Source of the DNA: Chloroflexota bacterium
GTDB lineage: Bacteria > Chloroflexota > Anaerolineae > Fen-1058
Direction of reading: 5' to 3'
DNA: 8,603 nucleotides
Assembly: GCA_016219235.1 (NCBI GenBank)
Contig: JACRBO010000578.1
Coordinates: forward strand, 1 to 8,603
The position numbers were made by a program, and so were the translations under genes. Under the pieces are notes generated by a model. It had not been told where the DNA came from. It did no database searches and saw only the letters and a list, made by a program, of their open reading frames with translations. Below, piece after piece: positions 1,299 to 8,603 of this stretch (positions within the stretch are counted from its first letter, which is position 1; each line of letters starts with the position of its first letter).

Positions 1299-1332
1299 CG
1301 CCCCGAACCTTTAGCCTCGCAAGGAGCACAAC

Positions 1333-3255
1333 ATGAAGATCTTCGTCCCCGGCCGCATCTGCCTGTTTGGTGAACACTCCGATTGGGCGGGCGGCCATCG
1401 CCGCATCAATGCCGACATCGAAAAAGGCTACACGCTGATCAGCGGCACGAATCAAGGGATTTATGCCGAGGTCGAGCCGCATCCCACTTCGCTCGTGTTG
1501 TCATCGACCGCGCCCGATGGGACGATCATCGGCCCGTACGATATCCCGATGGAACCGAAGGCGCTCCTCGAAGAAGCGGAGCGGGGCGGCTTCTGGAGCT
1601 ACATGGCGGGCGTGGCCTATCAGGTGGCGACGAACTATCGGGTGCGGGGGCTGATCATTCACAATACGTGCACGGATTTGCCGATGAAAAAAGGCTTATC
1701 CTCAAGCGCGGCGATCTGCGTGTTGACGGCGCGGGCGTTCAATCGCATCTACGATCTCAAGTTGACCACACGCGGCGAGATGGAACTGGCCTATATGGGC
1801 GAGATCACCACGCCCTCGCGCTGTGGCCGCATGGATCAAGGCTGCGCCTTTGGCACGCGGCCGGTGTTGATGACGTACGACGGCGACTTGCTGGACACGC
1901 AAGAACTGCAAGTCAACAGCGAACTGTACTTCGTCATCGTCGATCTGCACGCGAAGAAAGACACGATGGAGATTCTCAACAAACTCAATCGTTGCTATCC
2001 GTTTGCGGAAACCGAGATTGAGCGCGGCGTGCAAGAGTTGCTCGGGCCGATCAACAAGCGCATCGTGCATCAGGCGCTGGATGCATTGAAAGCGGGTGAT
2101 GCGCCAAAGTTGGGCGCGTTGATGGTGGAGGCGCAAGCCTTCTTCGATCGCTACGCCACACCCGCCTGTCCCGAAGAACTCACGTCGCCCGTGCTGCACA
2201 AAGTGCTGGCGTATGAGCCGCTCAAAGCGCATGTCTGGGGTGGCAAGGGTGTCGGTTCGCAGGGCGACGGCACCGCGCAATTTTTGGCGCGCAGCGAAGC
2301 CGATCAACAGGCGGTGATGGAGATCATCGAACGCGACTTAGGCATGGAGTGTCACACACTGTCGCTGAAGCCGGGTCGCAAAGTGCGCAAGGCGTTGATT
2401 CCGGCGGCGGGCTTTGGGACGCGATTATTCCCGGCGACGAAAGCGACCAAGAAAGAGTTATTCCCCGTCATCGATCGCGACGGCGTGGCGAAGCCGGCCA
2501 TTCTCTACATCGTCGAAGAGGCGCTGAATGCGGGCATCGAAGAAGTCGTCATCATCGTGCAAGAAAATGATCTGGCCGATTTCCGCTCGTTCTTCAATAC
2601 ACAGATTTCGATCGAGAACTACAACAAGTTGCCGCGTCACTTCCAGGACTATGCGCGGCGCTTGCTCGAAATCGGGCGGCACGTCACCTTTATCACACAA
2701 AACGTGCAGGACGGCTTCGGCCACGCGGTGTATTGCGCCCGCGAAGCGATCGGCCACGAGCCGTTCCTGCTGATGCTGGGCGATCACCTGTATCGCTCGA
2801 ATACGGATCGTTCGTGCGCGCAGCAACTGCTGGATGCGTATCAAGAACACGGCCTCAGTGTGGTAGGGTTGCGCCGCACGCCGGAAGAAGCCATCGCGGC
2901 GTTTGGCACGGCGACCGGTATCTGGCTGGAGGCCAATCGGGTGTTGAACATCACCGAATTTGCCGAGAAGCCCACGGTCGATTATGCGCGCGAGCATCTC
3001 TTCATCAGCGGCCTGCCGGAAGGTGAATACTTGACGTTGTTCGGGCAGTACATCATCAAGCCGCAAATCTTTGGCTACCTCGAAGAGAATATCACCAACA
3101 ACGTGCGCGAGCGGGGCGAATTTCAGTTGACCTCATGCCTCGATCGTTTACGGCAAGAGGCCGGCTTCCACGGCGTCGTCATCGATGGGCGGCGCTTCGA
3201 CATCGGTCTGCCGGAGCATTATCTGGAGACGCTGCGTACTTTTCGCGACGAGTAA
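1333..3255 (+). CDS. Bifunctional sugar kinase (GHMP family) - UDP-sugar pyrophosphorylase (GalU-like) fusion
   Basis: A 640-residue cytoplasmic protein with two enzyme domains. Residues 1-345 are a GHMP sugar kinase. Motif 1 (6-21, PGRICLFGEHSDWAGG) matches the galactokinase signature; R8 corresponds to the catalytic Arg, and E14, H15 and D17 to the sugar-binding residues. The ATP-binding loop is 117-127 (PMKKGLSSSAA), the catalytic-Asp motif is RMDQ with D168, and motif 3 is 304-314 (GKGVGSQGDGT). Residues 351-640 are a GalU-like nucleotidyltransferase: the nucleotide loop starts at 357 (PAAGFGTR) and runs into TKATKKELFPV; then K387-P388, GFGHAV (461-466), metal Asp D484 (LGDH), EKP (545-547), EFQLT (596-600) and D623 (FDIG). 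The linker is only a few residues. The inferred reaction is sugar to sugar-1-phosphate (ATP), then UDP-sugar (UTP). The sugar is unknown; galactose, glucuronate or arabinose are possible. Fkp/FKGP proteins have the opposite domain order. AAGGAG supports the start. Domain calls are firm; the substrate is open. Confidence 0.9.
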   Translation: MKIFVPGRICLFGEHSDWAGGHRRINADIEKGYTLISGTNQGIYAEVEPHPTSLVLSSTAPDGTIIGPYDIPMEPKALLEEAERGGFWSYMAGVAYQVATNYRVRGLIIHNTCTDLPMKKGLSSSAAICVLTARAFNRIYDLKLTTRGEMELAYMGEITTPSRCGRMDQGCAFGTRPVLMTYDGDLLDTQELQVNSELYFVIVDLHAKKDTMEILNKLNRCYPFAETEIERGVQELLGPINKRIVHQALDALKAGDAPKLGALMVEAQAFFDRYATPACPEELTSPVLHKVLAYEPLKAHVWGGKGVGSQGDGTAQFLARSEADQQAVMEIIERDLGMECHTLSLKPGRKVRKALIPAAGFGTRLFPATKATKKELFPVIDRDGVAKPAILYIVEEALNAGIEEVVIIVQENDLADFRSFFNTQISIENYNKLPRHFQDYARRLLEIGRHVTFITQNVQDGFGHAVYCAREAIGHEPFLLMLGDHLYRSNTDRSCAQQLLDAYQEHGLSVVGLRRTPEEAIAAFGTATGIWLEANRVLNITEFAEKPTVDYAREHLFISGLPEGEYLTLFGQYIIKPQIFGYLEENITNNVRERGEFQLTSCLDRLRQEAGFHGVVIDGRRFDIGLPEHYLETLRTFRDE

Positions 3256-4745: not shown

Positions 4746-4803
4746 TGATGAGTGACGAGTGACGAGTGAAGGCCGTTTCTCACTCGTCACTCGTTACTCG
4801 TCA
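4746..4803 (+). repeat. 24-base-pair hairpin of inverted heptamer repeats between xylA and xylB
   Basis: The left arm 4746-4769 and right arm 4780-4803 pair over 24 bases around a 10-base loop; as RNA every position pairs if two G-U wobbles are allowed. The left arm is three tandem heptamers (ATGAGTG, ACGAGTG, ACGAGTG) and the right arm three matching ones (CACTCGT, CACTCGT, TACTCGT). It starts 6 bases after the xylA stop and ends 7 bases before the xylB ribosome-binding site (GGGGAG, 4811-4816). No T-run follows, so a simple terminator is unlikely. mRNA processing or stabilisation giving more XylA than XylB, or a dispersed repeat, are the main options. Confidence 0.8.
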
Positions 4804-7876: not shown

Positions 7877-8603
7877 CTACACCAACGCATCGTCAATGAC
7901 TTGCCGGACGGCGGTGGCGTCCAGGTCTTTCTTGTCGAGGAAGGCCACCGCCCCGGCGCTTAAGCCTAAACGGTGAAACTCCCGATCGGGATACGCGCTG
8001 ATCAACACGACGCGTGTGGCCGGCGACACGGCTTTCACGCGGCGCGTGCAGTAGATGCCGTCTTCGTCAGTGAGTACGACATCGATCAACGCCAGCTGCG
8101 GCTTCACGCTCTCGGCCAGTCGCACAGCCTCGGCAACATCGTCGGCCTCGTACAACAGCGTGGCTGGATAGGTCTTGCCAATCATGCGCGCGAGCTGCTG
8201 TCGATAGCGCGGATTGTCATCGACCAGCAAAACCGACAGGGATTTGCCGGATTCCGATGCAGCGACCTCAGTCGCTTGCTGACCTGTCGCCGCCAGCACC
8301 TCGGGATGATGCATCAGGTAACTCAACGCCTCTGATCGGCTGTACACGCCCAACGCGCGATACAAGCGCGTGAGGTGGTTCTCGACCGTCTTGACGCTGA
8401 GGCCGGTGGTCTGCGCGATCTTGCGATTGTCGTGGCCCTGCGCCAGCAGATGCAGCAGTTCGCGCTGGCGGCGGGTAAGCGGCGGAACTTGCGGGGGCAG
8501 GGCGGGTGCCGACCGGTGGCGCAACAATCGCTCGACCAGCGGGCCGGATATCCAGCGTTCACCCGCGATCACGCGCTGCACGGCCAGCTGCAAATCGGCC
8601 AAC
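7877..8603 (-). CDS. Response regulator with LuxR-type HTH followed by a C-terminal receiver domain, 5'-truncated
   Basis: A cytoplasmic two-component regulator; 241 residues are visible and the frame stays open to the right edge. A TTG at 8600-8602 could be read as a start, but visible residues 1-30 (ADLQLAVQRVIAGERWISGPLVERLL) resemble the last receiver helix and linker of NarL/FixJ regulators, so the gene most likely begins outside the window. Residues 41-97 are a LuxR/GerE helix-turn-helix (LTRRQRELLHLLAQG, then GLSVKTVENHLTRLYRALGV). Residues 121-241 are a complete receiver: acidic pair D128-D129 (LLVDDN), phosphoacceptor D174 (ALIDVVL), S202 (VLISAY) and conserved K224 (FLDKK). The inferred order is receiver-HTH-receiver, unlike the usual receiver-HTH. 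It converges on the xylose cluster and nothing links it to xylose. The signal and targets are unknown. Confidence 0.88.
   Translation of the reverse strand, partial: LADLQLAVQRVIAGERWISGPLVERLLRHRSAPALPPQVPPLTRRQRELLHLLAQGHDNRKIAQTTGLSVKTVENHLTRLYRALGVYSRSEALSYLMHHPEVLAATGQQATEVAASESGKSLSVLLVDDNPRYRQQLARMIGKTYPATLLYEADDVAEAVRLAESVKPQLALIDVVLTDEDGIYCTRRVKAVSPATRVVLISAYPDREFHRLGLSAGAVAFLDKKDLDATAVRQVIDDALV

Follow-up and report, generated by a model that had tools for sequence, protein, structure and literature searches.

A conserved kinase-first fusion of a galactokinase fold and a GalU fold in a Chloroflexota bacterium, a probable UDP-hexose synthase

The stretch of DNA analysed here, hereafter the window, comprises 8,603 nucleotides from a Chloroflexota bacterium and carries, at positions 1333-3255 of the forward strand, an open reading frame that starts with ATG, contains no internal stop and encodes 640 amino acids. 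An earlier reading made from the letters alone, hereafter the sequence-only reading, had proposed that this one polypeptide joins a galactokinase-like kinase to a GalU-like uridylyltransferase through a very short linker, and both points are borne out. In the 640-residue protein, Pfam identifies GHMP_kinases_N at residues 98-173 (E 5e-10) and NTP_transferase at residues 353-634 (E 4e-20), and the families matched at E 0.001 are GHMP, galactokinase-signature and two NTP-transferase families, with nothing else. The best NCBIfam model is GalU (TIGR01099, residues 351-633, E 1.7e-54). In the AlphaFold2 model (mean predicted local distance difference test score 89.4), one strand ends at residue 345 and the next begins at residue 353, while the predicted template modelling score of 0.64 leaves the relative placement of the two domains uncertain. 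The gene is a single intact, kinase-first fusion of a galactokinase fold and a GalU fold, with the following features.

1321..1326, +: AAGGAG, likely ribosome-binding site, six bases 5' of the ATG (sequence reading)
1333..3255, +: whole gene, putative bifunctional kinase / uridylyltransferase of 640 residues (open reading frame, Pfam, homologues)
1333..2370, +: N-terminal GHMP kinase, galactokinase fold, residues 1-346
1348..1386, +: sugar-binding motif PGRICLFGEHSDW, residues 6-18, counterpart of galactokinase PGRVNLIGEHTDY (alignments)
1399..1404, +: Arg23-Arg24, within an 11-residue stretch missing from canonical GalK (alignments)
1693..1707, +: GLSSS, GHMP ATP-binding motif, residues 121-125 (alignment)
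1822..1839, +: CGRMDQ including Asp168, counterpart of the galactokinase catalytic Asp (CGIMDQ) (alignments)
2239..2271, +: GGKGVGSQGDG, third GHMP motif, residues 303-313 (alignment)
2371..2379, +: linker of about three residues, about residues 347-349 (AlphaFold2 model, structure comparison)
2380..3252, +: C-terminal GalU-like nucleotidyltransferase, residues 350-640
2410..2457, +: GxGTR...KKE nucleotide-binding loop, residues 360-375 (alignment; a few rows differ at R364, K373 and E375)
2698..2727, +: Q456...G-F-G-H-A, GalU-type base-recognition segment, residues 456-465 (alignment, role presumed)
2779..2784, +: Gly483-Asp484, expected metal site (alignment, role presumed)
2965..2973, +: EKP, sugar-phosphate contact segment, residues 545-547 (alignment, role presumed)
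3199..3201, +: Asp623, invariant, expected second metal ligand (alignment, role presumed)

A protein database search returned at least 7927 matches at E up to 0.001, including more distant relatives, and the best 120 of these are all full-length, covering 100% of the query with 638-662 amino acids and 78-98% identity; the label given by JGI to such proteins is 'UTP-glucose-1-phosphate uridylyltransferase/mevalonate kinase'. As more than 100 full-length relatives were found, together with fused copies in genomes of several phylum types, an assembly artefact or frameshift joining two genes is ruled out. Two separate genes as the normal state, which the sequence-only reading had named as the outcome that would speak against it, are ruled out by the same 120 homologues, full-length fused relatives being abundant.

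Among the GTDB species genomes, 49 loci were retrieved, 46 of which are related to the fusion, some being cut by contig ends; L047-L049 are distant transferases and were excluded from the fusion counts. Most loci are titled Anaerolineae, Thermoflexales, Chloroflexi or Chloroflexota, and those outside Chloroflexota titles are Sumerlaeota (L033, L039), Verrucomicrobia (L040), Glassbacteria (L035), Acidobacteria (L031) and an uncultured bacterium (L034). L020, titled Anaerolinea thermolimosa, belongs to genome G002; of 396 genomes drawn from its class, 30 match at E 1e-70. Among these, 22 are fused, one (G090) is cut off, three are transferase-only (G065, G091, G851) and four are kinase-only, with G116 and G050 close and G024 and G844 at about 50% identity. 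The phylum of G002 gives seven matches in 400 genomes, three of them fused. For the phylum of G011 (genome of L040, Verrucomicrobia), 36 of 288 genomes match at E 1e-50, with 28 fused and seven transferase-only forms, and G400 carries the kinase and transferase halves on two contigs. The phylum of G013 (genome of L033, Sumerlaeota) gives eight matches in 40 genomes: one fused, one fused but cut, and six transferase-only. The fusion pattern was unmatched in viral contigs. The joined form is thereby confirmed as a conserved family in Anaerolineae-, Verrucomicrobiota- and Sumerlaeota-type genomes.

To assess conservation, 46 proteins were aligned, of which 40 are fused, three are kinase-only and three are transferase-only. 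With regard to the kinase half, Arg8, Glu14, His15, Asp17, Trp18, Arg23, Arg24, Ser123-125, Asp168, Lys209 and Thr211 are present in all 43 kinase rows, and Gly121 of GLSSS is replaced by Cys in one row. The galactokinase model TIGR00131 is matched below its cut-off of 226.65 (40.8 bits with the whole protein, 44.2 bits with the kinase half), and the kinase half gives weak matches of about 58-61 bits to the NCBIfam models for archaeal galactokinase and for mevalonate kinase. For the pocket, the family was compared by profile with ten canonical GalK sequences from the scanned genomes (probability 98.9, E 1.8e-17), which places the sugar-contact and catalytic positions of GalK at Arg8, Glu14, His15, Asp17 and Asp168; the galactose-contacting Arg, Glu, His and Asp and the catalytic Asp are thus all found, in each of the 43 rows. 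We take the roles of these residues to be those of galactokinase, in which the positions of Glu14 and His15 presumably face the C6 hydroxyl of the sugar. The kinase probably acts on a hexose whose C6 hydroxyl is free, and this hexose need not be galactose.

In the transferase half, all the GalU motifs (GxGTR/KE, Q..G.GHA, GD, EKP and the C-terminal Asp) are found in the window protein, and we take their base-recognition, metal and sugar-phosphate roles to be those known for GalU. G360, G362, K374, Q456, G461, G463, H464, A465, D484, E545, K546, P547 and D623 are unchanged in all 43 transferase rows, T363 is altered in L107, and Lys373 is replaced by Arg in L035. The statement of the sequence-only reading that all catalytic motifs are kept holds for the window protein, which has the reference residue at positions 364, 373 and 375; across the family it has to be relaxed, these three positions being changed in a few rows.

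We consider it probable that the fusion is a bifunctional uridine diphosphate (UDP)-hexose synthase, acting on a free hexose with ATP and then with uridine triphosphate (UTP), and both halves of the window protein are very probably active. The kinase half would use ATP to phosphorylate the free hexose at C1 by galactokinase chemistry, with Asp168 as the base and Arg8 assisting, and the transferase half, given its likeness to GalU, would convert the sugar-1-phosphate and UTP to UDP-sugar and pyrophosphate. The likeliest sugar would be galactose or a close hexose retaining the C6 hydroxyl; galactose itself is a tentative choice. The sugar-1-phosphate may be handed over internally, as the sequence-only reading suggested; the modelled placement of the two domains is uncertain, and no tunnel is described even for Fkp (PMC11982464). 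Both activities, the sugar, UTP as the donor and the physiological role are thus what we infer from the likeness to known enzymes.

A number of observations in the two catalytic sites, in the host genomes and in the neighbourhood of the gene weigh against this reading. Relative to GalK, the kinase half shows an 11-residue insert after GEHSDWAGG, with Arg23 and Arg24 inside it, and a gap of seven residues where GalK has its sugar-contact Tyr. This Tyr (Tyr216 of L136) is present in 10 of 10 canonical GalK rows and falls in the alignment gap, the nearest fusion position, 216, being variable. As the insert and the missing Tyr occur despite the kept contact residues, the sugar is not readable from the sequence. 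The GalU model TIGR01099 is matched at 185.2 bits, below its cut-off of 326.8. In addition, Arg364 is replaced by Lys in L043 and by His in L103, and Lys373/Glu375 are replaced by Pro/Thr in L111-L113, which form one fused clade. Since the KKE segment is changed and each of the three genomes concerned (G235, G343, G393) holds a separate GalU, the fused transferase of this clade may be altered, with relaxed or lost activity.

With regard to the host genomes, GalK is above the cut-off in 15 of 21 fusion genomes, a GalT match of more than 200 bits is found in 16 of 21, and both are present in 11. Because GalK and GalT coexist with the fusion, galactose alone does not explain the gene, and a plain substitution for either of these Leloir enzymes is rejected as the general role. 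A further galactokinase-like family (L139-L141, 59-75% identical to L139), in which GGNHTDHN replaces GEHTDYN, occurs in three genomes without GalK above the cut-off (G002, G003, G004); a 402-residue open reading frame lying 34 bases upstream of the fusion in L023, with APGRVEL near its start, may be a relative. In L055 (6998-9522) and L128 (G014:C457), a gene for a distant galactokinase-like kinase directly precedes a sugar nucleotidyltransferase gene. Repeated pairing of galactokinase-like kinases with nucleotidyltransferases is suggested.

The line for a separate GalU was drawn at 200 bits, after the scores were known, and the scan covered 21 of the 28 fused genomes in the phylum of G011, all but G314, G361, G381, G169, G184, G335 and G342. 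Of the 53 fusion genomes scanned, 24 carry a separate GalU of at least 200 bits, so a UDP-glucose role is not general, and in the other 29 none was found. The UGP-type family PF01704, sought only in these 29 genomes, matched nine Verrucomicrobiota-type genomes and was not found in the other 20, which include all 18 of Chloroflexota type. As 20 of the 53 fusion genomes have neither a separate GalU nor a UGP-type match, the fused transferase may double as a UDP-glucose synthase; it would then also accept glucose-1-phosphate and would probably be the main UDP-glucose pyrophosphorylase in many hosts. Most of the genomes are drafts, which makes the absences soft, and PF01704 matched none of 14 named control genomes, so that the nine Verrucomicrobiota-type matches are its sole positive control. 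In G001 and G004, the fusion loci lie on single chromosome records, and there the absence is more than draft incompleteness. RmlA-like transferases persist in the GalU-less genomes and could make UDP-glucose, which leaves the UDP-glucose inference with moderate strength, and the distant kinase-only genomes G024 and G844 are likewise without GalU at E 1e-30. The source of UDP-glucose in some Anaerolineae, those with neither a separate GalU nor a UGP-type match, becomes testable with this family. A bolder, separately evolved version, in which the kinase serves a sugar outside the known natural anomeric kinases (for example glucose, giving UDP-glucose) and the transferase is the sole UDP-glucose synthase in a set of Anaerolineae, seems to us rather unlikely.

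The neighbourhood adds a further point against the synthase reading: no neighbour is common to most loci, the best family occurring in at most nine of 50 sequences (49 loci and the window). In the window, a gene for an MFS transporter, cut by the window edge, lies upstream of the fusion and also precedes it in L001 and L041; downstream are genes for a xylose isomerase (573 bits), a xylulokinase (589 bits) and a ROK-family regulator. xylA recurs after the fusion only in L001, a 97% relative, where it reaches the contig end. A 24-base inverted repeat (4746-4803, 92% complementary, arms separated by 10 bases) lies between xylA and xylB, and a regulator at 7877-8602 of the reverse strand has a LuxR-type DNA-binding domain ahead of a receiver domain; it is cut by the window edge, and an earlier receiver may be missing. 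No RNA family reached its gathering score in the window, and the repeats found there do not bear on the kinase/transferase gene. In L005, L014, L027 and L037, a tight upstream gene (gap 5 bp) appears by eye to encode a DNA methyltransferase and gives no functional clue.

Among the 31 Verrucomicrobiota-type and related loci, a gene for UDP-glucuronate decarboxylase is near the fusion in L093, L096 and L103. The L096 and L103 proteins reach 367 and 413 bits with PDB entries named UDP-glucuronate decarboxylase 1, the next PDB entry for L096 being at 145 bits and L103 matching nothing else at E 1e-60; the L093 protein was assigned by clustering. L040 and L095 show nearby genes resembling NAD-dependent sugar epimerases/dehydratases, whose best PDB match is dTDP-glucose 4,6-dehydratase, followed by epimerases, and whose motifs we take to be UDP-glucuronate 4-epimerase-like. 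A nucleotide-sugar dehydrogenase is near the fusion in L040, L095 and L113 (checked in L113), and a GmhB/HisB-like HAD phosphatase is immediately upstream in L096, L099 and L100. The neighbours of these 31 loci agree with UDP-sugar supply.

Such neighbours also fit UDP-uronic-acid or UDP-pentose salvage (glucuronate, galacturonate, arabinose or xylose), which would make the fusion a bacterial counterpart of the zebrafish enzyme DrGKUP. The three decarboxylase loci, the xylA and xylB genes that follow the fusion in the window, with xylA also in L001, and the Arg23/Arg24 pair, which is present in all 43 rows and could meet a carboxylate, are in line with this proposal. It is opposed by Glu14 and His15, which presumably face a C6 hydroxyl and are equally invariant, and by a tblastn search over the 49 loci, which found xylA only in L001 and xylB in none. 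Moreover, a different GHMP kinase of 331-337 amino acids with the motif GNPSDGY.GKT, which we take to be glucuronokinase-like, already adjoins a GalU gene in L113 (10137-12062), L051 (6265-8149) and L056 (4952-6949), a two-gene bacterial parallel to DrGKUP. In L113 this pair is directly 3' of the fusion, and in L051 it is about 1 kb from a kinase-only relative. We regard uronate or pentose salvage as unlikely.

The history of the family was examined on two kinase trees. The first comprises 88 domains, 54 fused and 34 kinase-only; of 45 kinase-length proteins, 31 entered as kinase-only, three as fused (P0171, P0194, P0234), and 11 were excluded because they run into the second half or appear cut. 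On this tree, the fused or kinase-only label changes 10 times, at least five of them on well-supported branches, and nine times without P0135, a kinase-only entry whose source labels it 'partial' and which could be a truncated fusion. The second tree, with 61 rows including 24 outgroup kinases, gives six changes, at least four of them forced; all 24 outgroup rows are kinase-only and lie together on one side of a strong branch. Kinase-only relatives are therefore of two sorts, a large outgroup and lineages nested within the fused clade. With the root assumed on the kinase-only outgroup, and with some kinase-only rows being short metagenome predictions, the simplest history would be a single fusion event, after which the transferase half was lost about five times, once in the lineage sister to the window gene (P0172, P0214). 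Since kinase-only relatives are nested in the fused clade, the two steps need not stay joined. Among the transferase-only relatives, those in L053 and L054 show about 49% identity; L053 has oxidoreductase-like genes and genes for glycoside hydrolases of GH20 and GH106 type nearby (3-1238, 1427-2320, 7912-10899), and the L054 locus resembles it by eye.

The repeated origin of kinase-only descendants would suit a fusion, by chance, of two unconnected housekeeping enzymes, a galactokinase paralogue and the GalU of the cell, with no common substrate, as would the 29 fusion genomes in which no GalU was found elsewhere and the structure of Fkp, which the available part of PMC11982464 describes as having no tunnel between the active sites. 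We find this improbable, as at least three phylum-level groups have retained the fusion with a nearly constant total length, and the sugar-1-phosphate is a natural link between the two chemistries. A third alternative, about as improbable, is a sugar-phosphate 1-kinase joined to a nucleotidyltransferase, in which a phosphatase encoded elsewhere would act between the two steps, in the style of heptose activation by HldE or HddA/HddC, and Arg23/Arg24 would hold the distal phosphate: the phosphatase genes of L096, L099 and L100, the HldE precedent and the GmhA-like matches in 21 of 27 fusion genomes speak for it, but the phosphatase is beside only three of 31 loci and passes the histidinol-phosphatase domain cut-off and not the GmhB ones, Arg24 is not conserved in all outgroup kinases, and the route is rejected as a general role because GmhA was not found at E 1e-5 in six of 27 fusion genomes (G004, G005, G012, G034, G064, G109) and reaches the family cut-off in none of the 30 scanned, a partly soft result given the drafts.

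A kinase/pyrophosphorylase fusion lets one enzyme turn a free sugar into a costly nucleotide sugar. As the family is large and bacterial and has natural fused and kinase-only forms, the value of fusing could be measured directly. The family is uncharacterised and widespread and has a reversed domain order, which should be a moderate surprise to specialists. No report of a kinase-first GHMP/GalU fusion was recognised in the literature searched, which misses most subscription journals.

With regard to known enzymes, HldE is likewise kinase-first with the nucleotidyltransferase second, the two being joined although a phosphatase acts between them, and both its folds are unrelated to those of the fusion; no HldE-type domain was matched by Pfam or NCBIfam models at E 0.001 in the 640-residue protein. 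The archaeal galactokinase (Pyrococcus, 1s4e, 2dei) is about 21-22% identical to the kinase half, which differs in being joined to a transferase. GalU shares the fold and the nucleotide, metal and sugar motifs of the transferase half, at about 25-34% identity. Plant FKGP is a one-polypeptide fucokinase/GDP-fucose pyrophosphorylase with the pyrophosphorylase first, and the natural GHMP fusions met in print, Fkp/FKGP and DrGKUP, show the order opposite to that of the fusion. The origin of the fusion was likely separate from that of Fkp, because free-standing members of the kinase family, together with GalU-like enzymes, are the closest relatives that were found. As described in the available part of PMC11982464, Fkp of Bacteroides comprises a pyrophosphorylase followed by a fucokinase in 949 amino acids, including a beta-helix domain and a linker of 70 residues, and uses GTP and fucose, so that the opposite order noted by the sequence-only reading holds. 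The available part of PMC3938481 describes zebrafish DrGKUP as an N-terminal UTP-type pyrophosphorylase, a putative UDP-glucuronate pyrophosphorylase with very low activity in the authors' tests, followed by a glucuronokinase, and reports that relatives in bacteria and archaea consist of the pyrophosphorylase alone. The separate evolution put forward in the sequence-only reading is likely in view of the conserved fusion and its free-standing nearest relatives, with the qualification that the closest UDP-type precedent, DrGKUP (PMC3938481, available part), had been overlooked.

The fusion resembles Fkp/FKGP in carrying a putative GHMP sugar 1-kinase and a putative pyrophosphorylase for nucleotide-sugar salvage on one polypeptide. 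Unlike Fkp, it is kinase-first, has 640 amino acids and a transferase of GalU type, and no extra domain of the beta-helix type was matched in it. Like DrGKUP (PMC3938481), it joins a GHMP sugar kinase to a bacterial-type, presumably UTP-using nucleotidyltransferase. The domain order is reversed relative to DrGKUP, and the kinase motif is GEHSDW in place of GNPSD, the motif we take DrGKUP to have. The fusion family would act like Fkp and DrGKUP while belonging to neither.
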